DNA of 24,676 nucleotides from JBGPLH01 sp041486365 [NCBI: Thermodesulfobacteriota bacterium] (GTDB lineage Bacteria; JAUYMQ01). Shown here one piece after another: positions 7,638 through 23,075 of this stretch (position 1 is the stretch's first letter; the number at the start of each line of letters is the position of its first letter). The position numbers were made by a program, and so were the translations under genes. The notes below the pieces were generated by a model. The model was given only the letters and a program-made list of their open reading frames with translations. It did no database searches and was not told the origin of the DNA. Location of the stretch: contig JBGPLH010000003.1 of assembly GCA_041486365.1 (NCBI GenBank), forward strand, positions 1 through 24,676, in the 5' to 3' direction.

Positions 7638-7647
7638 GTCTCCTCCG

Positions 7648-9063
7648 TCAGTCCAGCCGCACCTGCTCGAGGTACTTCGGCACCACCGACGTCCAGCCCA
7701 GCTCTCCGCTGATGCCCTGCCGGAGCGATTCCGCGGCCTCGGGCTCGCCGTGCACGACGAGGGCCGCCTCGGGCTCGCGCGGCGCGCCCCGAAGCCAGTC
7801 GAGGATCTCGGCGCGGTCCGCGTGGACGGAGAGCGCGGCGATATCAACGATCTCCGCACGCACCGGCACGTAGCGCCCCAGCATCTTCACGGCCCGCGCG
7901 CCCTCCGCGAGCAGCCGACCGCGCGTCCCCGCCGCCTGGAAACCCACGAGGATCACCGCGCTCCGGTGATCGGGAAGCCGCTGGGCCAGATGATGCAGCA
8001 CGCGGCCACCCGTTGCCATCCCCGATGCGGAGATGATGATCGACGGGAAGCGCTGCGCGTTGATCGCCCTGGACTCCTCCACGCTCTGAACTTCCTTGAG
8101 CTGCCCTGGGTCGAAGGGATCCCCGTCCCCGGCAATCCGCGGGCGCAACTCGGGGCTCCCGGAGGAGAGGGCGTCCCGGTAGACCCTGAGCGCGGCGGAG
8201 GCCATGGGGCTGTCCACGTAGATGGGCAGGCGGGGCACCGCGTTCTGCCGGATCATGCGGCGCAGGTGGAAGAGGACGACCTCCGTCCGGTCCACGGCGA
8301 AGGAGGGGATCACCACGGTCCCGCCCCGCTCGGCGGTGCGGGTGATCGCCTCCGCGAATCGCAGGAGGGCTGCCGTCTCGTCCTCGTGCCGCCGATCGCC
8401 GTAGGTCGACTCCGTGACGATGAAGTCCGCCTCGGGGATCGGCGCCGGAGGCTTGAAGATCGGGTGGTTCTGACGCCCGAGATCTCCCGAGAAAACGATC
8501 CGCCGCGGGGCGGGCCCATCGAGCGTGAGCAGCACCGACGCGGATCCGAGGATGTGCCCCGCCGGCTGGAACGACGCCCGCACCCCCGGCGCGATCTCGA
8601 GGGGCGCCCCGAAGGGAACCGCCTTGAATCGCTCGAGCGCCCCCTGGGCGTCCTCTTCCGTGAAGAGCGGGAGCGCCGGCTCATGTTTGGAGAATCCCTT
8701 CCGGTTCGCGTAGGCCGCGTCCTCCTCCTGAATGCGTCCCGAGTCGGGGAGGACGATCCGCGAGAGCGCTTCGGTGCCCTCCGTGGAGAAGATCGACCCC
8801 CGGAACCCGTCGCGCCAGAGCGCCGGCAGGTAGCCCGAGTGATCGACGTGGGCATGGGTCAGGACGACGGCGTCGATCGCCGCGGGATCGACCGGGAAGG
8901 GATCCCAGTTGCGCAGCCGAAGCGCCTTGAGGCCCTGGAAGAGCCCGCAGTCCACGAGCACGCGCGCGCGCGGCGTGTCCAGCAGGAAACGGCTCCCGGT
9001 CACCGTCTCCGTCGCGCCGAGAAAGCGGAGGATCGGGACGGCGGGGCGGCGTCGGTCGGTCAT
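7648..9063 (-). CDS. Metallo-beta-lactamase / beta-CASP RNA-processing nuclease-like protein
   Basis: This 471-residue protein has the metallo-beta-lactamase motif H70-A-H72-V-D74-H75, further metal-ligand segments PAGHILGSAS and FSGDLG, the TESTYGDR motif, and the C-terminal SVHAD and VVHGEPEA motifs of the beta-CASP / RNA-specificity (CPSF73, Ysh1-like) group. Members are endo- or exoribonucleases that use two zinc ions. Its ATG overlaps the TGA of the upstream PRPP-synthetase-like gene. The downstream phosphorylase starts 10 nt after its stop. The tight coupling suggests a pathway from RNA to nucleotides to sugar phosphates and bases. Confidence 0.9.
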   Translation of the reverse strand: MTDRRRPAVPILRFLGATETVTGSRFLLDTPRARVLVDCGLFQGLKALRLRNWDPFPVDPAAIDAVVLTHAHVDHSGYLPALWRDGFRGSIFSTEGTEALSRIVLPDSGRIQEEDAAYANRKGFSKHEPALPLFTEEDAQGALERFKAVPFGAPLEIAPGVRASFQPAGHILGSASVLLTLDGPAPRRIVFSGDLGRQNHPIFKPPAPIPEADFIVTESTYGDRRHEDETAALLRFAEAITRTAERGGTVVIPSFAVDRTEVVLFHLRRMIRQNAVPRLPIYVDSPMASAALRVYRDALSSGSPELRPRIAGDGDPFDPGQLKEVQSVEESRAINAQRFPSIIISASGMATGGRVLHHLAQRLPDHRSAVILVGFQAAGTRGRLLAEGARAVKMLGRYVPVRAEIVDIAALSVHADRAEILDWLRGAPREPEAALVVHGEPEAAESLRQGISGELGWTSVVPKYLEQVRLD

Positions 9064-9977
9064 GCCGCGTCTCCCGCGAGGACCCGGGCGACGAGGGGCG
9101 CCACGGGGATCGCGTTGGTGGCATGGGGAATCGTGTCGGTCGAGAGGACGCGACGGATCCCCGCGGCGCGGCAGCGCCCCAGCGCGCCCGGCGCGAAGAT
9201 CGCGTGGACCACGATGGCGTCCACCGTGGCGGCGCCCGCCTTCCTGAGCGCGCGCGCCGCCGCGGCGAGCGTGGCGCCGGAGCTGGCGATGTCGTCGACG
9301 ATCACCGCGCGGCGCCAGGCCCGGCGCGCGGCGCCCGGAAGATCGGGGAAATCGATCCGCACGGAGTGGTCCGAGGTGCGCGTCTTGCGCCCCACGACCC
9401 AGGGCAGACCTGCGGCCCGTGCGATGGCGCGCGTCCAGCGGGCTGACTCCTCGTCGGGTCCCGCCAGGAGGCAGCCCCGGGCGTCCTCGAGATGGGCCGC
9501 CACCGCCGGGGCCGCGGAGATCGCCCGGGCGCGGCCCGGCACCACGTCGCCGAGACGCCGCGCCCGGTGGAGATGGGGCTCGATCGTGATCACCCGGTCA
9601 AAACGCTCGCCCAGGAGGGAGCCGATCACACGCTGTGAAACCGGCTCGCCAGCAGCGAAGACGTCGTCCTGGCGCATGTAGGGAAGGTAGGGGGCGACGA
9701 GCGTCACCCGGCGCGCGCCGGCACGGCGAAGCGCGTCGGCGGCCAGCAGCGTCTCGACGATCCTGGCGTTCGGGTCGTGGAGCGAGCGGACGAGCACCGC
9801 CCGGGGCGGCGCGGGGGCCCGGACGTGGAGGAGGCTTTCACCGTCGGGGAAGATGTGGACGCGCACCGGCGCCGAAGCAAGACCCGCCGCGCGGGCGAGC
9901 CCCAGGGCGAAGGAGCGCGCGTCGGGGAAGTAGTGGACCATCGCCACCGGGCGGATCCGGACGGGCCGGCGGCTCAT
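9060..9977 (-). CDS. Ribose-phosphate pyrophosphokinase (PRPP synthetase)-like protein
   Basis: The 305-residue protein is near the usual Prs length of about 310. Recognisable segments are FPDGESLLHV (Prs FxDGE), SLHDPNARIVETLLAADALR, APYLPYMRQD (the ATP-site Y-x-R-Q-D) and the PRPP-binding loop VIVDDIASSGATL. It would make PRPP and AMP from ribose-5-phosphate and ATP. The sequence is divergent from housekeeping Prs, so it is probably an accessory paralogue. It overlaps both neighbours by 4 nt (kinase stop/start at 9974-9977, nuclease at 9060-9063), placing it under the same transcript as the globin kinase. An internal Met13 (MVHYFPD) is a possible alternative start. Confidence 0.85.
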   Translation of the reverse strand: MSRRPVRIRPVAMVHYFPDARSFALGLARAAGLASAPVRVHIFPDGESLLHVRAPAPPRAVLVRSLHDPNARIVETLLAADALRRAGARRVTLVAPYLPYMRQDDVFAAGEPVSQRVIGSLLGERFDRVITIEPHLHRARRLGDVVPGRARAISAAPAVAAHLEDARGCLLAGPDEESARWTRAIARAAGLPWVVGRKTRTSDHSVRIDFPDLPGAARRAWRRAVIVDDIASSGATLAAAARALRKAGAATVDAIVVHAIFAPGALGRCRAAGIRRVLSTDTIPHATNAIPVAPLVARVLAGDAA

Positions 9978-11656
9978 CCCCTCGACCGACGCGCGACGTC
10001 GGCGGCGCCCACGGGGATCTCCAGCGTAAGCGTGGTCCCCTTCCCTTCCGCGCTCGACACGTCCACATGCCCGCCGTGCTGCTGGATGATCCCCTCGACG
10101 ATGTTGAGGCCCATGCCCGTCCCCTTGGACTTCGTCGTGAAGAACAGCTCGAAGACGTTGACCCCCGGCGGGATGCCCGGGCCGGTGTCGCTCACCTCGA
10201 TCCGCACGTTGCCGTTCGCGCGGCGCGTGCGCACGCGCAGCGTCCCGCCCTCGGGCATCACGTCGAGCGCGTTGGTCACCACGTTCATCAGGGCCTGCTT
10301 CACCTTGTCATGGTCCGCCTGCGCGATGGGGACGCCCGGGTCGAAGTCGCGCTCGATCCGCACGCCCTGCCGCTCGGCCCGCAGCTCCTCGAGCTGGAGC
10401 ACCTGGTCGACGACCGCCTGCACCGACACGGGACCTCGCCGCAGGTCGCCCGGGCGGGCGAGCAGCAGGAAGTCGTTCACCAGCTCGTTCAGCCGGGTCA
10501 CCTCGCTGCGGATGCTCCCGATGGCGCGCTGCATGCTGGGGCGAAGATCCCCCTCCGCGTCGGAGGCCCGGCGGTCGAGGAGCGTGAGGTACAGCTCCAT
10601 GGCGTTCAGCGGGTTGCGCACCTCGTGGGCCAGGATCGCCGCGAGCTGCCCCACGGCGGCGAGCTTCTGCGCCTGGTGCACCTGTCGCGTCATCCGGTTG
10701 CGCTCGGTCACGTCCCGCAGCCACACCCGGAGCGGAGAGCCGGGCACATGCGCCTCCACGACGATCGCGGAGGCCTCCGCCTCCACGCGCTGGCCGTCCT
10801 TCGCGGCGAGCACGATCTCGAAATGGTGGGAGCCCGCCTTCCGCGCCCGCACGATTTCCTTCAGGTAGGTGTCCCGCTGCTCGGGGGCCACGATCACGTC
10901 GTGCGTCTTGCCGATCAGCTCCTCGCGTTCGTAGCCGAGACGCTCGACGAGCGTGCGGTTGAGCGACTCGAACCGCCCGTCCGGCTCCACCTGGTAGATC
11001 AGGCTCGGGCTCTGCTCGATCGTGCTGCGGTAGCGCGTCTCCGACGAGGCCAGCGCACGGGTGCGCTCCTGCACGCGCACGTCGAGCTCCTGGTTGAGCC
11101 GTTCCAGCTCCCGGTTGGACCAGCGCAGCTTTTCCTCGGAGGCGAGGATGTAGGACTCCATGGCGAGCTGCATGTCGATATTCAGGACCTTGTGCAGGGC
11201 CATGACGGCCGCAGACCCGCGCTCCGGGTCGTCGGAGAAATGATCGATGATGGGGGGGGTGAGGAGCGAGATGTAGAGCGCGTAGGCGCCGAGATACCAC
11301 TTGGGACGCAGCCGGATCCGCTCGTGGGTGAACCCGATCCGCAGCCGGCTCTCGTAGTGGTCCGGGCCGTACTCACCCGAGAAGAGGCTGACGAGGTACT
11401 CGCGCTGGGCGATCAGCAGGCGCATGCGCACCTCCTCGTCGGCCAGCAGTGCGCGCGTGTCGCCGAACTTGAGGAGGTGCTCGTAGAAGTTCTGGACGAA
11501 GGCGTCGGCGAAGGGCTCGATGACCGGCCGGAGGTCCCGGAGAAGGGCGCATTCCTGCTCGGTGAGACGGACGAAGGACGCCCGCTCCGCGCGCTCCGCC
11601 GCGCCGTAGCCGATCCCCTCGGCAAACCCCCTCTTCGTGGGGTCGATCTCGCTCAT
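9974..11656 (-). CDS. Globin-coupled sensor histidine kinase (protoglobin-PAS-HisKA-HATPase)
   Basis: I chose the ATG at 11656 because GGGAG precedes it by 7 nt; in-frame ATGs at 11698 and 11722 have weaker sites. The 560-residue protein is soluble, with no membrane segment. Residues about 25-165 are a protoglobin-type heme domain; H111 in IGFTHERIRLRPKWY is the likely proximal heme ligand. A coiled-coil-like linker (about 172-205) leads to a PAS domain (about 206-320). The HisKA domain follows, with phospho-acceptor H344 in AHEVRNPLNA. The ATPase domain has the N-box N458/N462, DTGPGIP (490-496) and GTGMGLNIV. It should sense O2, NO or CO and phosphorylate a response regulator; the NtrC-type regulator at 15695-17095 is the only one in the window. 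It is co-transcribed with the nucleotide genes downstream. Confidence 0.92.
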   Translation of the reverse strand: MSEIDPTKRGFAEGIGYGAAERAERASFVRLTEQECALLRDLRPVIEPFADAFVQNFYEHLLKFGDTRALLADEEVRMRLLIAQREYLVSLFSGEYGPDHYESRLRIGFTHERIRLRPKWYLGAYALYISLLTPPIIDHFSDDPERGSAAVMALHKVLNIDMQLAMESYILASEEKLRWSNRELERLNQELDVRVQERTRALASSETRYRSTIEQSPSLIYQVEPDGRFESLNRTLVERLGYEREELIGKTHDVIVAPEQRDTYLKEIVRARKAGSHHFEIVLAAKDGQRVEAEASAIVVEAHVPGSPLRVWLRDVTERNRMTRQVHQAQKLAAVGQLAAILAHEVRNPLNAMELYLTLLDRRASDAEGDLRPSMQRAIGSIRSEVTRLNELVNDFLLLARPGDLRRGPVSVQAVVDQVLQLEELRAERQGVRIERDFDPGVPIAQADHDKVKQALMNVVTNALDVMPEGGTLRVRTRRANGNVRIEVSDTGPGIPPGVNVFELFFTTKSKGTGMGLNIVEGIIQQHGGHVDVSSAEGKGTTLTLEIPVGAADVARRSRG

Positions 11657-11732
11657 GAGAAGGCTCCCGCCGGAAGGCGTGAGCCAGAAGTCTATCATGG
11701 GTCCGCCGGCCTCACACGGCACGGGCCGCCGC

Positions 11733-12668
11733 CTATCCCTCTCGCGACGTCCGGATTTCCTCGTTCACCTCGGCGACGAGCGACTCCGGCTCGACGCCGT
11801 GAATCTCCGCGGCCCGGCGCAGCGTCTCCGCAGCCAGGCCTGGGCACGTCAGGGTCTCCGTCCCGAACCGCCTTGCCAGCACGGCTTTCGCGGCCGGCCA
11901 GGCGCGGATCAGGTCGCCCACGCCCGAGTCCAGACGCACGGGCCCGTCCCCGCCGGGCGGGACCTCCGCGGCGGGGGGCCGGCCCTGGATGCGGCCCGGG
12001 CCCGGGAACTCGCCATCAATCACCGGGAGGGGAATCTCCCCGGCCGCCACGTGACGATCGAGCGCGGCGACGAACGCCTCCGCGTTCACCCTGTGGATCC
12101 GGCACGCCTTCTCCACGCTGACGAGCCTGGCGAAGGTGGCGCGGGCAACCGGGTTGGCGAGGGCAGTGAAGCCCCAGGCCTTGAAGATCTCGAGCGTCGA
12201 GGGCCAGCGGTCGAGCACTTCCGACACCTTCATTTCGCGGCGCGCCTTCCCCGCGATCTCGGAGACCTTCTCACGCCGGAGCACGGGGAACGCGTTGAAC
12301 ACGAAGATCCAGATCCCGAGCATGGCCAGCGTCGCGAACAGGGGGAAGATCGGGAGCCCCGCGTTCGTGATTCCCGCGGCGGCGAGCGCCCGCGTTCCGA
12401 GCATCCCCAGGAGCCCCACGTTCGCGAGCCAGAAGTGCGCGCCGATGAGCCGGGGGTGCCGCACGGGCCTGCCGGCGAAGCGCGGGAGCACGTGGTAGGC
12501 GACGCCCGAGATCATCATCGTCACGAAGCCGAGAAGATTCAGGTGGATGTGGACGTAGCGCCACGAGAAGCGGTTGAGCGCGTCCGCGCCCATGAGGGCG
12601 CCGAGCGTGGTCCCGATCGCTAGGTAGACCAGGCTCACCTGGACGAAGAGCCTCGGATAGACGTCCAT
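11733..12668 (-). CDS. Four-helix heme-copper-oxidase subunit I-like membrane protein with C-terminal DUF1858-type domains
   Basis: The 311-residue protein has four predicted membrane helices in residues 1-130. His residues sit at the helix ends in RYVHIHLNLLGF and GVAYHVLPRF, as in truncated NorB/CcoN-like proteins linked to nitrogen-oxide metabolism. The remaining half is soluble and holds two helical repeats: about 147-210 (VSEVLDRWPSTLEIFKAWGF, then ending near AALDRHV) and about 243-305. The second ends ETLRRAAEIHGVEPESLVAEVNEEI and contains TCPG, which fits DUF1858 well. It is too short to be a working oxidase. A role as a heme-bearing sensor or as an accessory to NO/O2 metabolism is inferred. 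It follows the scdA-N-like gene by 33 nt and precedes the globin kinase. Confidence 0.8.
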   Translation of the reverse strand: MDVYPRLFVQVSLVYLAIGTTLGALMGADALNRFSWRYVHIHLNLLGFVTMMISGVAYHVLPRFAGRPVRHPRLIGAHFWLANVGLLGMLGTRALAAAGITNAGLPIFPLFATLAMLGIWIFVFNAFPVLRREKVSEIAGKARREMKVSEVLDRWPSTLEIFKAWGFTALANPVARATFARLVSVEKACRIHRVNAEAFVAALDRHVAAGEIPLPVIDGEFPGPGRIQGRPPAAEVPPGGDGPVRLDSGVGDLIRAWPAAKAVLARRFGTETLTCPGLAAETLRRAAEIHGVEPESLVAEVNEEIRTSREG

Positions 12669-12701
12669 CGTGCTCCATTCCCCTTCGAGAACGTGGCGGG
12701 A

Positions 12702-12932
12702 TCAGAAATGCCGATCGATCTCCCTGGACAGGCGCTCCGCCTCCTCGGCTTCCCGGCGGATCTCCTCCAGAAGGGCAAATACGTCGAAGCCGCGATGCTC
12801 GCCCATCTGGGCGAGCGTGTGCTCCCCGCCGCAACAGGCGTCGATCCCCCGTCGCTTGAACACCGACACCGACGTGGGAACCCGCCGCACCACCTCGTTC
12901 AGGGTCATGCTCTCGTCGATCGGGACCGCCAT
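12702..12932 (-). CDS. ScdA/RIC N-terminal domain (DUF542) protein
   Basis: This small protein has 76 residues. The ATG at 12932 has AAGGA about 7 nt upstream. TLNEVVRRVPTSVSVFKRRG followed by IDACCGGEHTL is the signature of the N-terminal domain of the RIC/ScdA/YtfE di-iron proteins that repair Fe-S clusters damaged by NO or oxidants. The conserved DxCCGG cysteines are present (C33, C34). The C-terminal hemerythrin-like domain of full RIC proteins is missing, so it is a stand-alone domain. The frame stays open further upstream to 13502, but that stretch runs through the terminator-like hairpin and into the CBS gene, so it is not coding. It is the first gene of the run that continues to the oxidase-like protein and the globin kinase. 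Confidence 0.82.
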   Translation of the reverse strand: MAVPIDESMTLNEVVRRVPTSVSVFKRRGIDACCGGEHTLAQMGEHRGFDVFALLEEIRREAEEAERLSREIDRHF

Positions 12933-12988
12933 CCTCCATTCCTTCCCGGCCGCGCGCGCGCTCTGCGCGGACGCATAAATGGATCGAA

Positions 12989-13014
12989 GGCGGCCTCCCT
13001 TTCGGAAGGCCGCC
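12989..13014 (-). terminator. Hairpin, probable intrinsic terminator after the CBS gene
   Basis: GGCGGCCT (12989-12996) and AGGCCGCC (13007-13014) form an 8-bp GC stem. In the minus direction the stem is followed by TTCGATCCATTTATG, only a weak U-tract. It lies in the 152-nt gap between the CBS gene stop and the scdA-N-like start, and could terminate or attenuate readthrough. I found no clear promoter in the rest of the gap. Confidence 0.5.
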
Positions 13015-13084
13015 CCCTCCACTCCCGGCGCCGAGGCACCCCTCGCGGGTCCTTCCCGGAAGGCGGCGCGGGATGTTCGTGGCT

Positions 13085-13540
13085 CTAGGGCGCTCCGCTC
13101 GCCGCCGGCGCCATCGCGAGCGGCCGTTGATCCAACAGGTTGGCCAGTGCCCAGAGGATATCCGTCTGCGTCACGATGCCGATCACCTTGCCCTCGTCCA
13201 CCACCGGGAGGGCGCTGATCCGCCGCTCGAGCATCACGCGGGCGGCCTCGGTCACGGAGTGGTAGGGTCCGATCGACACGGGATCCGATGCCATCGCTTC
13301 CTCCACCCGTACGCGATCGAGAAGCGCCGCATAGTTTCCCATGCCGGCGAAGGGGACGGGCGGCGGGAGATACACGCGCAGGTAGCGATCGCTCAGGATC
13401 CCGATGAGCCGGTCGCCGCTCAGCACGGGCACGTGACGAATTCGGCGGCTCTCCATGAGGCCGAAGGCGCGACGCAGCCGGTCGCTCCCCTGGAGCGTCC
13501 ACACCGGCGTCGTCATCACGTTCAGCACCGCAATGTCCAC
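13085..13540 (-). CDS. Tandem CBS-domain protein
   Basis: The GTG at 13540 has GGGAGG with a 5-nt spacer; an in-frame ATG at 13567 has a poorer site but is possible. The 151-residue protein consists of two CBS motifs: the first with NVMTTPVWTL and RRIRHVPVLSGDRLIGILSD, the second with EEAMASDPVSIG and RRISALPVVDEGKVIGIVTQ TD. Stand-alone CBS pairs bind adenine nucleotides (AMP, ATP, SAM or NAD) and act as energy sensors. The gene follows the ferritin-like gene closely and probably shares its sigma-54-type promoter. A second, different CBS-pair protein is encoded at 18584. The terminator-like hairpin follows. Confidence 0.85.
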   Translation of the reverse strand: MDIAVLNVMTTPVWTLQGSDRLRRAFGLMESRRIRHVPVLSGDRLIGILSDRYLRVYLPPPVPFAGMGNYAALLDRVRVEEAMASDPVSIGPYHSVTEAARVMLERRISALPVVDEGKVIGIVTQTDILWALANLLDQRPLAMAPAASGAP

Positions 13541-13571
13541 CACAACCTCCCGTGTCCCGACGACCATCGCC

Positions 13572-14549
13572 TCAAGCCGACGCCGGCAGGTGTTCGAACT
13601 CGAGCACGCCGAGGGCCTCGTAATGCGGGCGCAGCCGCTCGGGCAGGAGCCCCACCTGCTTCAGATTGGGGATCAACGTGCTGAACAGCTCCTTGCGGAA
13701 CACCTTCCGGATCGGCGACTGCAGAACGGCTTCCCGGAGCCCCTTGATGTCCGTGAAGCCGAGCTCCTCGTAAACCGGCTGCGCGAAGAAGCCGTCGTGC
13801 ATGAGCACGCAGGCCTGGTAGGCGATGTCCTCGAGGTCGCGCTTGAAGCCTTCGGCCATGTCCTTCACGTCGTGCTTCAGGCTCAGGACGCCGAACGCCA
13901 CGTGCCGCGCCTCGTCGAGCCGCACGTGCTTCACGATGTCCCGGATCAACGGATCGACCGCGGACACGTGGATCGTGGTGAAGGCCGCCATGGCGAGGCT
14001 CTCCACCATGAGCTGCATGCCGAGCACCTTCACCTGCCAGGCCTCGTTCGAGAGGATCATCTGCAGCACGTTGTGCAGGTCCGGATCGATCGGGTACTCC
14101 TTGCGGAGCTTCTCGTTGAGGTACCGGTGGAACACCTCGACGTGCCGCCCCTCGTCCATGACCTGCGTGGAGGCGTAGAGCTTCGCCTCGATGTCGGGCA
14201 CGCTGTCGACGAGCTGGCCGCAGGTGAGCAGAGCGCCCTGCTCGCCGTGGAGGAACTGCGAGAGCCCCCAGCAGGACTCGAAGTAATTGAGCTTCGCGCG
14301 GGTTTTCTCGTCGAGCTTCTCCCACAGCGGCGTGCCGAAGATCGCGATCCGCTCGTACTGGAGGATCCCCTTCTCCACGTCCACGTTCATCGACCAATCG
14401 ATGTCCGTCGACGCGTTCCACTGGTTCAGCTTGGCCTTCTCGTACAGCGCGAGCAGATCGCTCCGGAGGCCGTGGTAGTCGTAGTTGAGAACCGAGTGAA
14501 CGGTGGAAGCGATGTCCTCTCGCACAACCGGCGTGCCCGTCTCCAGCAT
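13572..14549 (-). CDS. Ferritin-like diiron protein (RNR-R2/AurF-type oxygenase-like)
   Basis: The ATG at 14549 has GGGGAG at a 6-nt spacing; the in-frame ATG at 14570 lacks one. The 325-residue all-helical protein carries diiron ligand motifs: E103 in LHGEQGALL, E133-x-x-H136 in DEGRHVEVFH, an E in MVESLAMAAF, and a second DExxH-like motif in VRLDEARHVAFG. LNQWNASTDIDW near the N-terminus is typical of ferritin-like oxygenases and R2-like proteins. It probably activates O2, oxidises a substrate or scavenges oxygen; the substrate is unknown. It has its own upstream sigma-54-type promoter at 14639-14654, and is followed by a CBS-pair gene. Confidence 0.8.
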   Translation of the reverse strand: MLETGTPVVREDIASTVHSVLNYDYHGLRSDLLALYEKAKLNQWNASTDIDWSMNVDVEKGILQYERIAIFGTPLWEKLDEKTRAKLNYFESCWGLSQFLHGEQGALLTCGQLVDSVPDIEAKLYASTQVMDEGRHVEVFHRYLNEKLRKEYPIDPDLHNVLQMILSNEAWQVKVLGMQLMVESLAMAAFTTIHVSAVDPLIRDIVKHVRLDEARHVAFGVLSLKHDVKDMAEGFKRDLEDIAYQACVLMHDGFFAQPVYEELGFTDIKGLREAVLQSPIRKVFRKELFSTLIPNLKQVGLLPERLRPHYEALGVLEFEHLPASA

Positions 14550-14638
14550 TTGAATCTCCCCGGGGGTCATCTCGATGGCCGTCGCGCCTTTCCCGTCCCG
14601 GCGCTGGGCCCTGCTTCCAGGAACCTGGCCGGAGGGGT

Positions 14639-14654
14639 TGCAACGCCTGTGCCA
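14639..14654 (-). promoter_or_regulatory. Sigma-54 (-24/-12) promoter before the ferritin-like gene
   Basis: The minus strand reads TGGCACAGGCGTTGCA, one mismatch from TGGCACG-N4-TTGCW, with GG and GC exactly 10 nt apart. The predicted start of transcription is near 14628, about 80 nt before the ATG at 14549. The site lies in the 225-nt intergenic gap 14550-14774, which contains no gene. It is the best match of the four. Confidence 0.72.
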
Positions 14655-14774
14655 GCGAGGAATTCCGCGCAGTTCGGGGGGATCCGGTGAGAGCGCCGCT
14701 GCAGGAGATGCGTGAACGGATTGGAAGGACGTTCAGTTTTGCAAGGCATGCAGCCTGCGCGCGGACGAAAAGCG

Positions 14775-15698
14775 TCACCGCGCGGAGGGCTTCCAGTCGA
14801 GGGGCTTCACGGCAAGGACCGGGCAGGGGGCCGAGCACAGGAGGCCCTGCGTCGTGGTGCCCAGCACGAAGCGGCGGAGGCCGCCCGCTCCGTGGGTCGC
14901 CACCACGATGGCGCCGGCGCCGAAGGCGCTCGCCGCGCGGCACAGCTCGCGCACCGGATCGCCGGCGACGACACGGCTCGTGATCTTCAGGCCCGCGCGC
15001 GCCATGGTCTTCGCGCGGGGTTTCAGGCGCTCGAGCAGGCGGCGACGCTCCCCCGCGATCGCGGCGGGATCGGGGGTGACGGGGAAGCCGAGGCCGCCCA
15101 GGTAGCGCAGCGCCCGGAGATCGATCACGTGGAGGAGGAGCACACGCATCCCGGCGTGATGGGGAAAGGATGCCGCCGCGCGGAGGGCCTGGTCGCTCCC
15201 GCGGGAGAAATCGTCGGCCACGAGTACCCGGCGAAGGGCGGGTGAGGGGCCGCGGGTGACGAGCACGGGGATCGGGACGTGCATCACCACCTCGGAAGCG
15301 ACGCTTCCGGGCATCACGCCGCGGACGCCGCCGTAGCCCCGGGTCCCCATCACCACCAGATCGGAGCCGAGCTCGCCGATCAGATTGGGAATCTCCTCCC
15401 CCGGGATTCCGAGCACGAAATGGCGATGGACGGGAACACGGGTGCGGGCGGCGCGGGCGCGCCATTGCTCCAGCGTGGCGCGCGCGCGGTCCACCGCGCC
15501 GCGGCTCGCCCGCCCGCCGTCGCGGACGAAGTCGGCCAGCGCGGCTGTTGCGTTGGAGATTCCCTTGCGGAAGGGATAGACATGGACGACGTCGAGGGTG
15601 CCGCCCGAGGCGCGGGCGAGCCTCGCGGCCATGCGAAGGGCCGACGCGCTCGGGGCAGAGAAATCCACCGGAACGAGGATCCGGTGGAAACCGGTCAT
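14775..15698 (-). CDS. Tandem universal stress protein (two Usp domains)
   Basis: The ATG at 15698 overlaps the TGA of the response-regulator gene by 4 nt. The 307-residue protein has two Usp folds. The first starts HRILVPVDFS and ends with GTRGYGGVRGVMPGSVASEV and VPVPVLVTRG-like sequence. The second starts RRVLVADDFSRGS and ends with THGAGGLRRFVLGTTTQGLL. Both keep the Gly-rich G-x2-G-x9-G-[ST]-like ATP-binding motif, so ATP binding is likely. Tandem Usps accompany low-oxygen and dormancy responses in many bacteria. Translational coupling to the NtrC-type regulator puts it in the same regulatory unit. Confidence 0.9.
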   Translation of the reverse strand: MTGFHRILVPVDFSAPSASALRMAARLARASGGTLDVVHVYPFRKGISNATAALADFVRDGGRASRGAVDRARATLEQWRARAARTRVPVHRHFVLGIPGEEIPNLIGELGSDLVVMGTRGYGGVRGVMPGSVASEVVMHVPIPVLVTRGPSPALRRVLVADDFSRGSDQALRAAASFPHHAGMRVLLLHVIDLRALRYLGGLGFPVTPDPAAIAGERRRLLERLKPRAKTMARAGLKITSRVVAGDPVRELCRAASAFGAGAIVVATHGAGGLRRFVLGTTTQGLLCSAPCPVLAVKPLDWKPSAR

Positions 15699-17095
15699 CC
15701 CTCCGCCCGGCCGGAGCCGCCCGTCTCGCGGCCGTACTCCTTGAGCCGGTAGTAGATCTTCCGGGCCGATATGCCCAGCAGCTCCGCCGCGCGCGGGACC
15801 TGCCCGCCCACCGCGTCGAGCGTTCCGAGAATCAGCTCGCGCTCGGCCTCCTCGAAGGAGATCCCCGGTGTGAAGCGGATACGTCTTCCCTCGGTCTCCG
15901 GCATTCCCACCAGCTCCGGGAGGTGCTCGATGGCGATCCGCGGGCCCACGCACAGGACCACGGCCCGCTCGATGATGTTCTCCAGCTCGCGGATGTTGCC
16001 GGGCCAGTCGTACCGGATCAGCCCCTGCAGCGCCGCCTCATCGATCCCCGTCACCTGCTTCTCGTTCTCCGCGGCGTAGCGCCGGAGGAAATGGTCCACC
16101 AGGGCCGGGATGTCGGCCTTCCGGTCCCGGAGCGGCGGCATGACGATCTGGATCACGTTCAGGCGGTAGTAGAGGTCTTCCCGGAACTTCCCCTCCGCGA
16201 TGAGCTTTCGCAGATCCATGTTCGTGGCCGCCACGACGCGCACGTCCACGCGAAGCGTCTCGCTCCCTCCCACCCGCTCGAACTCGCGCTCCTGCAGGAA
16301 GCGAAGGAGCTTCACCTGGGTCGGAAGGGGCACGTCGCCTACCTCGTCGAGGAAGAGCGACCCGCCGTCGGCCTGCTCGAAGCGCCCGCGGCGGCGCGCG
16401 AGGGCGCCCGTGAAGGATCCCTTCTCGTGGCCGAAGAGCTCACTCTCGAGCAGGGTCTCCGAAAGCGACGCGCAGTTCAGCACGATGAAGGGCTTGTCCT
16501 TGCGCGGGCTGTGCTGGTGGATCGCCTGCGCGATCAGCTCCTTCCCGGTGCCGCTCTCGCCGGTGATCAGCACGTTGGAGCGGCTGGGCGCCACCTGGGC
16601 CACCGTCTTGAAGACCGCCTGCATCTGCGGACTGTTGCCGATGATGTTCGAGAAGCGGTAACGCTCGTCGATCCGCTCGCGCAACCCCCGGGCCTCCTGC
16701 ACCAGGTGGCGCTTCTCGAGGCAGCGCTCGACGCTGATCTCCATCTCCTCGGTGTCCACCGGCTTCACGAGGTAATCCGCGGCGCCGTGCTTCATCGCGT
16801 CGACCGCGGTCTTGATGGTGCCGAAGGCCGTCATGAGAATGAACCCGACGTCGGGGTCGGTTTCGAGCGCTTTCTCGAGCAGCTCCATGCCGTCGACCTT
16901 GGGCATCTTCAGATCCGAGATGATCACGTCGTGGCCCTTGGCGCGGAGCATCTCGAGCGCCTCTTCCCCGTCCGCCGCGGCATCGACCTCGTAGCCGTCC
17001 TCCTTCAGGATCTCCGAGAGCCCTTCCCGTGTGCCCTGCTCGTCGTCCACGACCAGCAGGCGCCCACGCAGCTCCGCGTTCCGGGGTGCATTCAT
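15695..17095 (-). CDS. NtrC/AtoC-family sigma-54-dependent response regulator
   Basis: The frame is open to 17365, but the start is the ATG at 17095, where REC homology begins. The 466-residue protein has a receiver domain with VVDDE near 15-19 and phospho-acceptor D61 (ISDLKMP). A central AAA+ domain carries Walker A GESGTGKE (179-186), the sigma-54 contact loop GSFTGA (226-231; the family consensus is GAFTGA) and Walker B GGSLFLDE (244-251). A Fis-type helix-turn-helix follows (AAELLGISARKIYYRLKEYG). When phosphorylated it should bind enhancers and drive open-complex formation at sigma-54 promoters. It is preceded by a sigma-54-type promoter itself, suggesting autoregulation. The globin kinase at 9974 is the likely partner. 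Confidence 0.93.
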   Translation of the reverse strand: MNAPRNAELRGRLLVVDDEQGTREGLSEILKEDGYEVDAAADGEEALEMLRAKGHDVIISDLKMPKVDGMELLEKALETDPDVGFILMTAFGTIKTAVDAMKHGAADYLVKPVDTEEMEISVERCLEKRHLVQEARGLRERIDERYRFSNIIGNSPQMQAVFKTVAQVAPSRSNVLITGESGTGKELIAQAIHQHSPRKDKPFIVLNCASLSETLLESELFGHEKGSFTGALARRRGRFEQADGGSLFLDEVGDVPLPTQVKLLRFLQEREFERVGGSETLRVDVRVVAATNMDLRKLIAEGKFREDLYYRLNVIQIVMPPLRDRKADIPALVDHFLRRYAAENEKQVTGIDEAALQGLIRYDWPGNIRELENIIERAVVLCVGPRIAIEHLPELVGMPETEGRRIRFTPGISFEEAERELILGTLDAVGGQVPRAAELLGISARKIYYRLKEYGRETGGSGRAEG

Positions 17096-17203
17096 GGGGT
17101 TTCCCCTGTCCTTCGGTTGAAGCGCATGCATTCCCGCTCCGGTCCTTTCGCGGTCCCAACCTGGACCCGTCCCTTTGCCTATCACCGGCTTCCCCCTTCT
17201 CAA

Positions 17204-17219
17204 AGCAAGCGATATGCCA
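17204..17219 (-). promoter_or_regulatory. Sigma-54 (-24/-12) promoter before the response-regulator gene
   Basis: The minus strand reads TGGCATATCGCTTGCT, matching TGGCACG-N4-TTGCW at 10 of 12 defined positions with correct GG-N10-GC spacing. Predicted transcription starts near 17193, giving a leader of about 100 nt before the ATG at 17095. It would make the activator gene part of its own regulon. Confidence 0.65.
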
Positions 17220-17517
17220 CCGTCACGCGCGCTCCCTTTAGAGTCGAATTTTTCCCTTGTCTCCAAGGAATTTTCCTCACGTCGGACATCAAAGCGGCCC
17301 TTCGCGCAGCCTGATTGCGCACTATTTTCACAATTCGGCGGATAATTGCAATCGTTGCGTATCATCTATATAGCGCTCTGGCCGGAGCCACCGGAAGGCA
17401 TCCGATGGGCCCGGACGGGCCTGACCGAAATCCCCGGGAACAGGCGAGATCGCGACCGGGGCTCGCCTCGAGCGTACAGTCCCGACAGGGCTGCCCGGGA
17501 CAGGCCCCGAAAGCGGG

Positions 17518-17533
17518 CGGCATGATTTTTGCT
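17518..17533 (+). promoter_or_regulatory. Sigma-54 (-24/-12) promoter before the DksA-like gene
   Basis: CGGCATGATTTTTGCT keeps GG and GC 10 nt apart, with a perfect TTGCT -12 element and a T-tract spacer favoured by this sigma factor. Predicted transcription starts near 17544, exactly where the tandem hairpin repeat begins. Confidence 0.62.
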
Positions 17534-17538
17534 CCTTT

Positions 17539-17612
17539 CAGATTTTGTCGGCCCGCCCTTCGGGCGGGACCTCTGGTCAGATTTTGTCGGCCCGCCCTTC
17601 GGGCGGGACCTC
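17539..17612 (+). repeat. Tandem 39-nt direct repeat, each copy with a GC hairpin
   Basis: The 35 nt at 17539-17573 recur identically at 17578-17612 with a 39-nt period. Each copy contains the perfect 7-bp stem CCCGCCC-TTC-GGGCGGG (17552-17568 and 17591-17607). No T-run follows on either strand, so they are not standard terminators. They would form the extreme 5' leader of the DksA-like mRNA if the promoter at 17518 is used. A REP-type doublet is an alternative, since a RAYT transposase is present. Confidence 0.85.
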
Positions 17613-17673
17613 CGGCTCGTTCCCAGAGAAGTGTTTCGTCGTTTCAATGCGATTCGATCGCGAGGGGGTTGGG

Positions 17674-18255
17674 ATGGGAAAGCGGGCAGGCCAGCGGGCC
17701 GGCCGATCGGCCGGTTTCGTGACCGCGAAGAAGGTGAAGGGAAAGAAGGCCAAGCACGAGGCGATTCACGACGAATCGCTAGCGGGGCCCGCCGCGACCG
17801 AGCCACGGCACGGCGCCGCGAACCCTCCTGCGCCGGACCAGGTATTCCCTTCGGGTCCCTCGGCCGACCCGGAAGCCGAGCACGTCGGAAGACTTCCCCT
17901 GGGCCCGGACGATCTCGACAGGATCCGCGCTCTCCTCGTGGCTCGACGCGTTCGCGCGCTTCGTACATCGGGCGAATTGCACCGGGACGAGTCGGATCTC
18001 GAGGAAGCGGAAACGCAGAGCGCGGAGCTCATGGAGAAGAGCACCGATCGCACCCTGGAGAGCGCGCTGCAGACGGAAGAGGAGGCCGAGCGGTCCCTTC
18101 TCGGAGAGCTGGACGCCGCGCTTGCTCGCATGGAGAACGGGACTTACGGTCTCTGCGAGGAGTGCGGGGAGCGCGTCGCCCTCCCGCGGCTTATGGCGAT
18201 CCCGGAAGCCCGTCGGTGCATCCGGTGCGCGCGGGACGCGTCCCGCAGACGCTGA
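17674..18255 (+). CDS. DksA/TraR-family zinc-finger protein with a basic N-terminal extension
   Basis: The ATG at 17674 has GAGGGG about 7 nt upstream; an in-frame ATG at 17647 and a TTG at 17545 have none. The 193-residue protein starts with a Lys/Arg-rich tail (KRAGQRAGRSAG, AKKVKGKKAKH) and a Pro/Ala-rich linker to about residue 75. A helical coiled-coil region follows (80-155), with an acidic turn RDESDLEEAE where DksA places its catalytic tip. It ends with a C4 zinc finger (C161, C164, C182, C185). DksA-type proteins enter the RNA polymerase secondary channel and, with ppGpp, reset transcription under stress. It has its own sigma-54-type promoter. Confidence 0.88.
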   Translation: MGKRAGQRAGRSAGFVTAKKVKGKKAKHEAIHDESLAGPAATEPRHGAANPPAPDQVFPSGPSADPEAEHVGRLPLGPDDLDRIRALLVARRVRALRTSGELHRDESDLEEAETQSAELMEKSTDRTLESALQTEEEAERSLLGELDAALARMENGTYGLCEECGERVALPRLMAIPEARRCIRCARDASRRR

Positions 18256-18468
18256 CTCGCCCGACGCGCGCGGGAGTCTCTCTTGCGTCGACGCAAGGCG
18301 TGGATGCAAAATCTGCCATCGCTGCACCGCGAGCCCTCCGGGAGCGCACTTCTGGCAGGGGCGAATCATCTCGCGATGGCGTTCCTTGGGATGCGTCCGG
18401 CCTCCGCGGTTCCTGGTTTTAGCCCCGGGCCCCGTCCGCTGCGTGGCCGACGAGCCCGCTCCGGGCCT

Positions 18469-18484
18469 TGGCATGGAACCTGCT
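18469..18484 (+). promoter_or_regulatory. Sigma-54 (-24/-12) promoter before the CBS-HPF-Lon-Usp group
   Basis: TGGCATGGAACCTGCT differs from TGGCACG-N4-TTGCW at two positions and keeps GG-N10-GC exactly. A preceding T gives the favoured TTGGCA. Predicted transcription starts near 18495, about 90 nt before the ATG at 18584. Confidence 0.67.
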
Positions 18485-18499
18485 TTACGCAGTAATGCA
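18481..18499. promoter_or_regulatory. Dyad overlapping the -12 element and transcription start (possible operator)
   Basis: TGCTTTAC-GCA-GTAATGCA is an inverted repeat with 7 of 8 arm positions matching, centred next to the predicted start site. A protein bound here would block the promoter. No known operator consensus is recognised, so it is only a candidate. Confidence 0.3.
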
Positions 18500-18583
18500 C
18501 CAGCCGGATCCGCTCGCAAACGCAACGGCTGCCCTACGTTTGCAACGGATCCCTCGGCGCGATCAAGGGATGGGAGGACCGCT

Positions 18584-19060
18584 ATGAACGTCGAACAGTT
18601 GATGAGCAAGAACGTGAGCACCTGCCGGCCGGAGGAGAGCCTGAACGAGGCCGCCCGGATCATGTGGGAGACCGATGTGGGATGCGTGCCCGTGGTCGCC
18701 AGCGACGGGACGGGCCAGGTGGTCGGGATCGTCACCGATCGCGACATCTGCATGGCTGCTTACACAAAGGGCAGGGCCCTGTATGAGATCGCCGTCTCGG
18801 ACGCCATGTCGAAGAACATCGTGGCATGCCAGCCGGACGACACCATCGTGCGGGCCGGGGAACGCCTGCGCCAGCACCGCATCCGGCGGCTTCCGGTGCT
18901 CGACGACGCGGGGCAGCTCCTGGGCGTGATCTCGCTCACGGACATCGCCCGCGAGGCGGCGAAGGAACGCCGGAAGAAGACCAAGAGCGTCTCGGACGCC
19001 GACGTCGGCAAGACCCTCTCGGCCATCTGCGAGCCCCGACTCCCCGCCTCGCTCGCGTGA
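18584..19060 (+). CDS. Tandem CBS-domain protein
   Basis: The ATG at 18584 has GGGAGG with a 6-nt spacer; upstream open frame to 18122 overlaps the DksA-like gene and is not used. The 158-residue protein has CBS1 (LMSKNVSTCRPEES, then TDVGCVPVVA and VGIVTDRDIC) and CBS2 (DAMSKNIVACQPDDT, then HRIRRLPVLDDAGQLLGVIS). The tail is basic. This order resembles hypoxia-induced CBS-pair proteins such as mycobacterial Hrp1. It probably senses adenine nucleotides. It is the first gene of a plus-strand group of four. Confidence 0.88.
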   Translation: MNVEQLMSKNVSTCRPEESLNEAARIMWETDVGCVPVVASDGTGQVVGIVTDRDICMAAYTKGRALYEIAVSDAMSKNIVACQPDDTIVRAGERLRQHRIRRLPVLDDAGQLLGVISLTDIAREAAKERRKKTKSVSDADVGKTLSAICEPRLPASLA

Positions 19061-19105
19061 CGGCGATTTCGAAATCTGATCCAGGAAGCAGAACCGGGAG
19101 AGGAC

Positions 19106-19642
19106 ATGGAAATCCACTGGAGCGGTCTTGACGAGATCGGCGGCCCGGAGAAGGAGCGCGTCGAGGAGCGCATCGAGTCCCTCCTGGAGGGGCATCAAGA
19201 TCTGATCGACGTGCGGATCGCCGCCCGGCCGACGAACCACCACCGCCACGGCGGGCAGGAGATCCACATCACCTGCGAAGCCCGGGGCCAGCAGATCGTC
19301 GCCGCGCGCGCACGGGAAGATCTGGGGCTCTCGCTCAACGAGGCGCTCGACGCCTTCGAGCGGGAGGTGCGGCGGATGCGCGAGAAGAGGCTCGAGCGGA
19401 GCACGCGAGGCGCGCCCACGCCGTCCGTCCACGGCGTCGTGCGGCGGATATTCCCCGATCGGGGTTATGGCTTCGTCCGGACGGACGAGGGGAAGGAAGT
19501 CTACTTCCACCAGAACGCCGTGCACGGGGGGCTCGACTTCAAGCATCTCGAGGAAGGCCAGCGTGTCGCCCTCGACGTCGAGCAGGGGCACAAGGGACTG
19601 CAGGCCATCACGATCAACCCGCTCCCGCCCGAGGCGACCTGA
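19106..19642 (+). CDS. Ribosome hibernation (HPF/RaiA-like) domain fused to a cold-shock domain
   Basis: GGAGAGGAC precedes the ATG. Residues 1-100 form the S30AE/HPF fold: MEIHWSGLDEI, then ERVEERIESLLEGHQDLIDV, then EIHITCEARGQQIVA and a helix with DALDAFEREVRRMREKR. Residues 113-175 are a cold-shock OB-fold with RNP1-like RGYGFVRTDEG and RNP2-like VYFHQNAV. The long-HPF dimerisation domain is replaced by the cold-shock domain. It should bind the 30S decoding region and RNA, silencing or protecting ribosomes in resting cells. It lies 45 nt after the CBS gene. Confidence 0.9.
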   Translation: MEIHWSGLDEIGGPEKERVEERIESLLEGHQDLIDVRIAARPTNHHRHGGQEIHITCEARGQQIVAARAREDLGLSLNEALDAFEREVRRMREKRLERSTRGAPTPSVHGVVRRIFPDRGYGFVRTDEGKEVYFHQNAVHGGLDFKHLEEGQRVALDVEQGHKGLQAITINPLPPEAT

Positions 19643-19796
19643 CGCAGGCGGGGCTGTTTCGCGCGCCGGCGCCACGGCCGGGGCGGGCAATTGCGACGAG
19701 ACCAGGCAAGGGAGCGCCCTCTCACGGGTCGATGCCGGAGGACGGGTGTTCCTGCGCCTGCGTGCCCACGCTCCTTCCGGCTCCGAGGTGACGCGG

Positions 19797-22208: not shown

Positions 22209-23068
22209 CGGACCCCGAAGGCGCGGGCGCGATCCGGCGGATCCTGGTGGCGCTCGACGCGTCGCCGGACAGCCTGGCCGCGCTGGAGGCGGCGGCGGAG
22301 CTTGCGTCGCGGCTCGACGCCGAGCTGGCCGGCCTCTTCGTGGAGGACGTGCGCCTCGTGCAGGCGGCCGCGCTCTCGCTCGCGCGGGCGGTGAACGTGC
22401 CCTCGGCCACGGAGCGGGAGTTCGATGTCGAAGCGATCGAGCGGGAGCTGCGGGTTCAGGCCGCGCGGATCCGCCGGGAACTGTCGGCGATCGGAGAGCG
22501 GCTCCAGGTCCGCTGGACGCTGCGCGTGGCGCGGGGACAGGTTGCCGCGGAGGTGATCGGCGCCGCGCGCGACGCCGATCTGCTCCTGATGGGGCGCGGC
22601 GGCCGCCCGAGGGTACGCGATGCCCGACTCGGATCGGTGGCGCGCTCCGCCGCAACGGAAGCGACGGCTCCGGTGCTGCTCCTGCGCGCGGGGACGCGGA
22701 TCACCGCGCCGGTCCTCGTGGGATACGATGGATCCCCCGGTTCCCGGCGCGCCCTCGTGCTCGCCGCGGCGCTGGCCCGCGCGGAGAGCGGCGGGCTCAC
22801 GGTGCTGGTGGGGGGCGTGAATGGAGAATCGGCGCGGCGCCTCGAGGAGGACGCGGTGGCGCGGATCGGGGGTGCCGGTGTTCAGACGCGATTCAGGCGC
22901 GTGCCCCCGGGCGACGGACGCCTGCTGCGCGAGGCGGTGATCCGGGAAGGCGCCGGCGTGCTCGTGCTCGGCGGACGGCGGGACGAGACGGAGCTGCAGG
23001 ATCTCGCGCGATGGCTAGCGGAGCTGGACCAGCCGGTACTGATATTGGGGTCAGGCTTGACTTATTGA
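22205..23068 (+). CDS. Tandem universal stress protein, 3' end supplied by the mobile element
   Basis: The GTG at 22205 overlaps the Lon-like TGA. The 287-residue protein has a full first Usp domain (IRRILVALDASPDS to GRGGRPRVRDARLGSVARSA, VLLLRAG) and a shorter second one (APVLVGYDGSPGSRRAL to LDQPVLILG). The last codons, GSGLTY and the TGA at 23066-23068, lie inside the left inverted repeat of the RAYT element. The original C-terminus has therefore been replaced, though probably by only a few residues because Usp domains normally end after this strand. ATP binding is plausible for the first domain. Confidence 0.88.
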   Translation: MTDPEGAGAIRRILVALDASPDSLAALEAAAELASRLDAELAGLFVEDVRLVQAAALSLARAVNVPSATEREFDVEAIERELRVQAARIRRELSAIGERLQVRWTLRVARGQVAAEVIGAARDADLLLMGRGGRPRVRDARLGSVARSAATEATAPVLLLRAGTRITAPVLVGYDGSPGSRRALVLAAALARAESGGLTVLVGGVNGESARRLEEDAVARIGGAGVQTRFRRVPPGDGRLLREAVIREGAGVLVLGGRRDETELQDLARWLAELDQPVLILGSGLTY

Positions 23069-23075
23069 CTTTTGC
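23047..23075 (+). repeat. Left terminal inverted repeat of the intact RAYT element
   Basis: It begins GGGGTCAGGCTTGACTTATT and ends GACTTTTGC. It is identical over 29 nt to 5886-5914. It carries the stop codons of the transposase (minus) and of the Usp gene (plus). Confidence 0.88.

Follow-up and report, generated by a model that had tools for sequence, protein, structure and literature searches.

A putative self-controlled sigma-54 regulon of the NmpR type, with a protoglobin histidine kinase, in a genome of the Thermodesulfobacteriota

A stretch of 24,676 nucleotides from JBGPLH01 sp041486365, a Thermodesulfobacteriota bacterium (GenBank assembly GCA_041486365.1, contig JBGPLH010000003.1, positions 1 to 24,676; the whole stretch is called the window here), encodes a protoglobin histidine kinase and an NtrC-type response regulator, with four sites resembling sigma-54 promoters in the intergenic DNA around them. 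We consider it probable that positions 6132 to 23068 constitute a compact, self-controlled sigma-54 regulon of the type controlled by NmpR in Myxococcus xanthus and that it is run by the globin kinase and the NtrC-type regulator. The genes of this region, starting with those two, are as follows.

9974 to 11698, minus strand: protoglobin-PAS-HisKA-HATPase histidine kinase (Pfam PF11563, 1.3e-37; PAS, HisKA, HATPase)
15695 to 17095, minus strand: NtrC-type response regulator with receiver (Asp61), sigma-54 AAA+ domain with GSFTGA loop, and Fis-type helix-turn-helix (Pfam, tree, residues)
14775 to 15698, minus strand: tandem universal stress protein (Usp), overlapping the NtrC stop (PF00582, two stretches)
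13572 to 14570, minus strand: AurF-like diiron protein, first gene behind the 14639 promoter (PF11583, 6.7e-19)
13085 to 13567, minus strand: CBS-domain pair (PF00571, two stretches)
12702 to 12932, minus strand: DUF542/ScdA_N protein (PF04405, 3.7e-11)
11733 to 12668, minus strand: COX1-like membrane segment with two stretches of DUF1858, a hybrid-cluster-protein-associated domain (PF08984, PF00115; TIGR03980 above cut-off)
9060 to 9977, minus strand: ribose-phosphate diphosphokinase (PRPP synthetase), overlapping the globin kinase stop (profile matches)
7648 to 9063, minus strand: MBL-fold beta-CASP hydrolase (profile matches)
6132 to 7649, minus strand: protein of the thymidine/AMP phosphorylase family with an unsettled start codon (NCBIfam PRK04350, 591 bits; cut-off 434)
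17647 to 18255, plus strand: DksA/TraR zinc-finger protein, start at 17647 or 17674 (PF01258, 7.4e-13)
18584 to 19060, plus strand: CBS-domain pair (PF00571, two stretches)
19106 to 19642, plus strand: hibernation-factor-like (HPF, S30AE) domain with a cold-shock domain (CSD) (PF02482, PF00313)
19797 to 22208, plus strand: LonB/LonC-like AAA+ protease (PF13654, PF20437, PF05362)
22205 to 23068, plus strand: universal stress protein; one Pfam stretch passes and the length fits two domains (PF00582)

Pfam confirms the genes named in a preliminary description of this DNA, except that the protein called ferritin-like there matches AurF, a diiron oxygenase family. The minus-strand run behind the promoter at 14639 consists of the AurF-like, CBS, DUF542, COX1-like/DUF1858, globin kinase, PRPP synthetase, MBL, and phosphorylase genes, whose gaps are short or overlapping apart from 152 nt after CBS; no terminator-like site is listed in that gap, where such sites are at chance frequency. 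The NtrC gene and the overlapping tandem Usp gene lie behind the promoter at 17204, and on the plus strand the promoters at 17518 and 18469 precede the DksA-like gene and the CBS, HPF-CSD, LonB, and Usp genes, respectively. Judged from gene spacing, each of these groups would be one operon. HPF, DksA, and Usp fit growth arrest, and DUF542 and DUF1858 are presumably associated with nitric oxide (NO) or redox stress.

The four predicted promoters, in order of their score in a sigma-54 matrix scan, are as follows.

14639 to 14654, minus strand: sigma-54 -24/-12 promoter of the AurF-like-to-globin-kinase run, TGGCACAGGCGTTGCA (rank 1, 20.1 bits; 69 nt 5' of the AurF-like start)
17204 to 17219, minus strand: sigma-54 promoter of NtrC and the tandem Usp, TGGCATATCGCTTGCT (rank 2, 19.3 bits; 109 nt 5' of the NtrC start)
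18469 to 18484, plus strand: sigma-54 promoter of CBS, HPF, LonB, and Usp, TGGCATGGAACCTGCT (rank 3, 16.9 bits; 100 nt 5' of the CBS start)
17518 to 17533, plus strand: sigma-54 promoter of the DksA/TraR-like gene, CGGCATGATTTTTGCT (rank 4, 15.3 bits; 114 nt to the start if this is 17647)

All four had been proposed in the preliminary description; each is present, intergenic, and correctly oriented, and each keeps GG-N10-GC, a pattern that is uninformative by itself (635 matches in the window against 599 expected). The longer consensus said to be shared by them, TGGCAYR-N4-YTGCW, is exact in three, which are the only exact matches in the window (0.01 expected by chance in 100 shuffles), and the site at 17518 to 17533 departs from it by a single mismatch, C replacing the first T. 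A distance to the start codon of 80 to 140 nt was also claimed; the measured gaps are those listed above. The matrix scan that had been suggested as a check was run over both strands of the window (∼49,300 positions) with weights that approximate the published consensus and are independent of, and not fitted to, the four sites. These occupy ranks 1 to 4, none of them coding, in a window that is only ∼8% intergenic; rank 5 (12.0 bits, a reported 3.4 bits under rank 4) lies inside a gene, ranks 5 to 9 are all coding, and rank 10 is intergenic. Four matches of at least 15 bits, compared with a mean of 0.2 in 30 first-order Markov sequences, rule out a chance origin, and the tests together support the four predicted sites as real.

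Between the DksA promoter and the start codon lies a 39-nt direct repeat (17538 to 17612; 1.9 copies, 100% match), each copy of which holds a hairpin with a TTCG loop, and the DksA leader has a predicted fold of −47.1 kcal/mol (z −2.6). An Rfam scan gave nothing at gathering scores. The repeat is possibly a REP-like (repetitive extragenic palindromic) element or a leader control element.

A circuit of this kind is not without precedent, since the NmpRSTU system of M. xanthus is the same kind of system and has an overlapping regulon (PMC11841059). There, the NtrC-like NmpR is phosphorylated by a receiver-kinase, NmpS, on which the protoglobin kinase NmpU acts in turn (PMC6211767, PMC11841059); the unphosphorylated form of NmpS is the more active one (PMC6211767). 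In the relay model, oxygen activates NmpU, NmpS is turned off, and the regulon is on at low oxygen. NmpR binds GCGCA-N5-TGCGC, of which GCA-N5-TGC is kept at all bound sites, with two enhancer sites per promoter, 14 to 15 nt apart, and other spacings at two of seven bound promoters (PMC11841059). Its regulon comprises a CBS protein, Usp, a P-type ATPase with a cbb3 oxidase set, HemN-hemerythrin, pilR, and its own kinases, and mxan_4236, the CBS gene that leads the nmpR operon, is upregulated under hypoxia (PMC11841059). Homologues of nmpSTU are known beyond the deltaproteobacteria, e.g., in Planctomyces, and the system was expected to be more widespread (PMC6211767).

The window regulator was compared with 40 loci whose NtrC proteins are 54 to 60% identical to it (clade loci) and with 20 control loci carrying paralogs of 47 to 51% identity, all obtained by NtrC searches of genome draws. 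The clade loci combine the top 20 rows of one draw with 20 loci from four others, chosen by score (one contributing draw gave 12 of its 24 listed loci, and two loci are from one genome, G027); the paralogs were taken from lower rows among the matches listed for the first of these draws rather than from the lower edge of the clade. The clade loci are mutually related, so that rows are not independent, and cuts at contig ends make the neighborhood counts lower bounds. The window NtrC, the 40 orthologs, and 4 rows picked by their globin kinases form one clade (100/99) that excludes all 20 paralogs. This clade includes locus L168, taken, partly from its layout, as a Myxococcus-type nmp locus and used as a stand-in, M. 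xanthus NmpR itself being outside the set, and by this placement the window regulator would belong to the NmpR clade. It sits on a long branch within the clade and is at most 60% identical to every row. No closer NtrC relative was found in six partly overlapping phylum-level draws (112, 149, 140, 193, 101, and 99 genomes), run at different E-value limits, in which the best match was about 60%, and the class of genome G316 holds no further genome. The AurF-like protein was also tried as a guide to syntenic relatives and dropped: among the best 80 of 109 AurF loci, 18 match another window protein, mostly a distant kinase or NtrC, and the best AurF match (51%, L001) has nothing else in common with the window.

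The GCA-N5-TGC core was adopted from PMC11841059 before counting. Upstream of the four promoters it occurs as follows.

14701 to 14711, no strand assigned: NmpR-type enhancer core, proximal, 46 nt upstream of the AurF promoter (motif scan)
14741 to 14751, no strand assigned: NmpR-type enhancer core, distal, 86 nt upstream of the AurF promoter (motif scan)
17348 to 17358, no strand assigned: NmpR-type enhancer core in the gap from which the NtrC and DksA-like genes diverge, 128 nt upstream of the NtrC promoter and 159 nt upstream of the DksA promoter (motif scan)
18306 to 18316, no strand assigned: NmpR-type enhancer core, 152 nt upstream of the CBS promoter (motif scan)

Of 14 copies in the window, 5 are intergenic (1,850 start positions, 7.5% of all), and all 5 lie in three promoter regions, one of them downstream of its promoter. 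All four promoters have a core in the 170 bp upstream of them, against 0.37 expected, although this limit was set after the distances were known; with a limit of 160 bp, two of the four have a whole core, and at 250 bp a single region would hold one by chance with a probability of 5 to 11%. The downstream copy (18522 to 18532, in the CBS leader) could be a repressing site or a chance occurrence. A palindrome of wider spacing, GCGCA-N7-TGCGC (17304 to 17320), lies 27 nt from the core between the NtrC and DksA-like genes and may be a second regulator site or a weak terminator-like hairpin.

The pairing of this core with a sigma-54 site recurs across the clade. A core is present within 250 bp upstream of 22 of 45 sigma-54-like sites at clade loci, compared with 4 of 45 downstream, and at paralog loci it is present at 1 of 12 sites upstream and 1 of 12 downstream. 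For clade sites of at least 14 bits the counts are 16 of 36 upstream (5.1 expected) and 2 of 34 downstream, and in 9 of the 22 core-bearing cases the core is 71 to 76 nt away. GCA-N5-TGC ranks at the top of 1,024 (64 × 16) trinucleotide dyads in the window and clade sets alike, in a scan that scored only dyads present at ≥6 clade sites or ≥3 window promoters. The genes behind such paired sites in relatives include those for NtrC, globin kinases, Usp, CBS with hemerythrin, HemN-type proteins, and Hsp20, predicted types much as in the published NmpR regulon, together with sigma-70-type factors and proteins lacking a family match. Over 25 whole genomes, the composite of sigma-54 site and core gave 25 + 13 matches against 7 + 6 for the reversed control, an enrichment of only about threefold; CBS, Usp, NtrC, and Hsp20 genes are among these matches, but so are acyl-CoA dehydrogenase, thiolase, and glycogen debranching genes, which have no clear link. 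At one locus with an NmpU-like globin kinase (L158, 5878 to 7434), a 14.1-bit sigma-54 site with paired cores precedes a DksA-like match and then that kinase, an arrangement that echoes the DksA promoter of the window; the start of the DksA-like gene there is uncertain and could fall upstream of that site.

The gene neighborhood also follows the clade. With a protoglobin profile, a globin kinase was found in the fetched stretch of 24 of 40 clade loci and of none of the 20 paralog loci (Fisher 1.7e-6, with rows not independent); Usp occurs at 23/40 versus 1/20, CBS at 17/40 versus 0/20, and a DksA-like protein at 10/40 versus 0/20. All five loci picked by a full-length match to the globin kinase (L081 to L085) have an NtrC 53 to 55% identical to that of the window directly adjacent. 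A globin-kinase search of 396 genomes from the phylum of genome G003 (E up to 1e-62) gave two matches, one of them on a 4.1-kb contig. The other (L239, 5996 to 7573) is a globin-PAS kinase that aligns with residues 42 to 563 of the window kinase and adjoins a divergent tandem Usp gene, and no NtrC match lies within 17.5 kb of it; no sigma-54 site at either locus reaches 13.5 bits. A single protoglobin from 60 genomes of the same phylum (E up to 1e-15) had only weak matches to the window, its locus being chemotaxis-like by eye, and was not used.

When the globin kinase is aligned with AfGcHK, the globin-coupled kinase of Anaeromyxobacter (PDB 5ohe), its Tyr72 and His125 fall on Tyr45 and His99 of that protein. 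All 29 aligned globins, that of the window among them, keep the heme His, and 27 of the 29 keep the distal Tyr. Among PDB matches, the window globin scores higher against 2w31, which we take to be a globin sensor from Geobacter, and HemAT (1or4) than against 5ohe. It is 20 to 32% identical to 28 clade globins, which average 41% between their two groups, and a separate origin of the window globin is possible. The phospho-His358 of the kinase half lies in the H-box HEVRNP.

Several lines of evidence place this kinase half with NmpS rather than NmpU. First, 13 clade loci encode a separate kinase in addition to their globin kinase, and in every case the best such kinase, in the position of NmpS, is closer than the globin kinase to the kinase half of the window; 12 of these 13 globin kinases match it at E values of 3e-29 to 4e-22, compared with 8e-38 to 8e-45 at the 11 loci where no kinase accompanies the globin kinase. 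The 12 weakly matching kinases are NmpU-like and form a clade of their own (100/99). The line between NmpU-like and other kinases, drawn at an E value of 1e-36 where a score gap is visible, rests on similarity to the window and was checked by the H-box and by counting loci with and without a separate kinase. In this classification, the 40 clade loci comprise 12 of the relay type, all with a separate kinase, 12 of the direct type, 11 of them without one (E up to 1e-8 over ≥180 residues), 7 with a plain kinase only, and 9 without a kinase in reach. Second, the H-box is HE[IV]xNP in the window, in 18/18 NmpS-type kinases, and in 16/16 direct-type kinases and H[ED]LRNP in 12/12 NmpU-like kinases. 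Third, in an approximately unbiased (AU) test, run after the tree had been inspected, joining the window with the 12 NmpU-like kinases was rejected (p-AU 0.0066), whereas joining it with the other 34 was not rejected (p 0.155). Mean alignment scores run in the same direction (436 for 18 NmpS-type, 384 for 16 direct-type, 298 for 7 paralog, 267 for 12 NmpU-like, and 265 for 2 other kinases), omitting six rows, namely, a duplicate (L175) and five kinases remote from those of the clade. The window kinase is thus predicted to be of the direct type, and as its catalytic half is like NmpS and not NmpU, one protein may replace the relay. A globin kinase with an NmpS-like catalytic half is apparently new, although the direct form may already be drawn in a supplementary figure of PMC6211767, which mentions divergent domain architectures.

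We propose the following circuit. The ligand of the globin kinase would be O2 (or NO), bound at a heme that His125 holds and that has Tyr72 on its distal side. Having a catalytic half of the type that belongs to NmpS in Myxococcus-like loci, the kinase would phosphorylate or dephosphorylate the NtrC-type regulator directly. Phosphorylated NtrC would bind GCA-N5-TGC and drive sigma-54 polymerase at the four promoters, and so control NtrC with the tandem Usp, the AurF-to-phosphorylase run, the DksA-like gene, and the CBS-HPF-LonB-Usp group. Since promoters of this kind precede both the NtrC gene and the run that contains the kinase gene, as in the NmpR type, sensor and regulator would both be autoregulated. 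By homology, the set would be turned on when oxygen is limiting and would slow and protect the cell through ribosome hibernation, CBS and Usp proteins, DksA, and a protease. The sequence itself shows the genes, the promoter sites and enhancer cores, the clade to which the regulator belongs, and the type of kinase domain; phosphotransfer without a relay, how far the operons extend, the signal, and most of all the sign of the response are inferred. The globin-kinase/NtrC/sigma-54 regulon of the preliminary description stands in part, with its sites, an activator-type NtrC, and a stress-gene set behind the promoters. The partnership of kinase and regulator, proposed there from the proximity of genes that it recognized as nonadjacent (they are 3.9 kb apart), is made probable by the clade neighborhood, the kinase-domain type, and the shared enhancer motif.

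A number of observations weigh against this interpretation. NmpU did not phosphorylate NmpR (PMC6211767), and AfGcHK, an NmpU homologue, has activity in the Fe(II)-O2, Fe(II)-CO, and Fe(III) states but none in the Fe(II) state (PMC8697598); activity with O2 bound would, taken alone, make a direct system active in oxygen. The exact place of the window in the kinase tree has weak support (92/53, 87/83), and the class means given above are partly circular, because NmpS-type and direct-type kinases were drawn by similarity to the window. The core at 17348 to 17358 is common to the NtrC and DksA-like promoters, so that the four promoters are three independent cases; three of the four have a single core, at 128 to 159 nt, beyond the 71 to 76 nt of 9 of the 22 core-bearing sites in relatives, the two AurF cores are 40 nt apart start to start and not about 29, and none of the 14 window cores has the full GCGCA-N5-TGCGC form. 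No globin kinase was found in the fetched stretch of 16 of the 40 clade loci, of which 9 have no kinase match and 7 have a plain kinase, in 2 cases weak and 2.5 to 4 kb off. HPF occurs at just 2 of 40 clade loci and the COX1-like segment at 5 of 40, neither being significant, and relatives of LonB, AurF, the phosphorylase, PRPP synthetase, MBL, and DUF542 were found at none of the 40 clade loci and at no paralog locus. From these counts, the company of globin, Usp, CBS, and DksA is a trait of the clade, and the remainder is peculiar to the window.

The sign of the response is where the strongest alternative arises. A direct kinase skips the inversion by NmpS, and so it must be inhibited by O2, unlike AfGcHK, or the set is turned on in oxygen, or the ligand is NO or the redox state of the heme. 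That the globin kinase is active with O2, as AfGcHK is, and that the set is therefore on with oxygen or when NO or redox stress oxidizes the heme, appears to us rather unlikely, although it is the most serious competitor. It agrees with the conserved heme residues, with the lack of a separate NmpS among the scanned window proteins, with a possible need of the AurF-like diiron protein for O2, and with the NO or redox stress that DUF542 and DUF1858 (TIGR03980) suggest. The growth-arrest character of HPF, DksA, and Usp argues against it, as does the overlap in CBS and Usp with the hypoxia-linked NmpR regulon (PMC11841059), and the low identity of the window globin to clade globins means that the sign of AfGcHK need not carry over. 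We entertain, tentatively, a fuller version of the low-oxygen circuit, in which the NmpR clade is coupled to globins in two wirings, a relay in which the globin kinase inhibits NmpS and a direct form. A separate origin of the window globin would then mean that globin control of NmpR-clade regulators arose more than once, and direct kinases that keep the set on at low oxygen would need an oxygen sign opposite to that of AfGcHK.

It is unlikely, in our judgment, that the NtrC-type regulator and its promoters form a regulon that answers to a kinase encoded elsewhere, with the globin kinase serving another regulator and being a mere target gene. The two genes do lie in different transcription units, five of 40 clade loci, including all three from the phylum of genome G003 (L151 to L153), have a plain kinase within ∼1 kb of NtrC and no globin kinase in sight, and NmpU itself does not act on NmpR. 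Those points are met by the NmpS/direct type of the window kinase half, by the lack of a separate kinase match at 11 of 12 direct-type loci, and by the NtrC that directly adjoins all five globin-picked kinases. A general nitrogen- or starvation-type NtrC locus, with real sites and no gas link, would suit the generic stress character of Usp, CBS, HPF, and DksA and the best NCBIfam names for regulator and kinase (AtoC/AtoS and NtrC or ZraS, all below cut-off) but is very improbable given the links of the clade to globin kinases and the NmpR motif.

Like NmpRSTU, the proposed circuit has a protoglobin kinase and an NtrC of the same clade; GCA-N5-TGC cores accompany its sigma-54 sites, promoters stand before both the regulator and the gene run of the sensor, and CBS and Usp are among the targets. 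It differs in its kinase, which carries globin and PAS domains on an NmpS-type half, and in its enhancer cores, which are farther away and mostly single and lack the paired full form at 14 to 15 nt. No separate NmpS (receiver-kinase), NmpT (double receiver), or other second kinase or receiver protein was found among the 20 window proteins scanned, the partial frame at 24083 to 24676 lying outside that scan. In place of cbb3, HemN, and hemerythrin, the window has HPF-CSD, LonB, AurF-like, DUF542, PRPP synthetase, MBL, and phosphorylase genes; apart from the COX1-like segment, such oxygen-use genes are absent from it. AfGcHK is likewise a protoglobin sensor on a histidine kinase, but it has no PAS domain and its kinase domain is of another class. 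In Mycobacterium tuberculosis, the heme sensor kinases DosS and DosT (GAF heme) and the NarL/LuxR-type regulator DosR control a dormancy regulon without sigma-54. The resemblance to DosR drawn in the preliminary description holds as an analogy, in that a heme sensor kinase accompanies Usp, CBS, and other dormancy genes, but with an NtrC-type regulator and a protoglobin sensor the window system is neither a member of the DosR type nor homologous to it.

If the proposed circuit is correct, the globin/NtrC oxygen circuit of NmpRSTU extends to a lineage outside the genomes sampled, in a single-kinase form, and its predicted gene set is larger and dormancy-like, with HPF, LonB, DksA-like, and AurF-like proteins that go beyond the published regulon. 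The split into relay and direct forms poses the question of whether loss of the relay reverses the oxygen sign of the kinase. The motif pair of GCA-N5-TGC and sigma-54 site may be of use for reading the regulon in bacteria that have not been cultured.

Behind the globin kinase, the PRPP synthetase, beta-CASP MBL hydrolase, and thymidine/AMP phosphorylase genes form an overlapping trio (6132 to 9977). On an Azospirillum plasmid a phosphorylase gene also adjoins that of an MBL protein; in two regions inspected of 166 plasmid phosphorylase records there is no globin or NtrC annotation. Beyond the region, positions 23062 to 24006 encode a Y1/IS200-type transposase with a DnaA-type helix-turn-helix domain (Y1_Tnp and Bac_DnaA_C), presumably REP associated in type. 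At the other end of the window, positions 2 to 1888 encode a DsbA-like thioredoxin domain fused to an NhaA Na+/H+ antiporter, and positions 1909 to 3669 encode a thioredoxin-reductase-like flavoprotein with an N-terminal cyclic-nucleotide-binding domain.

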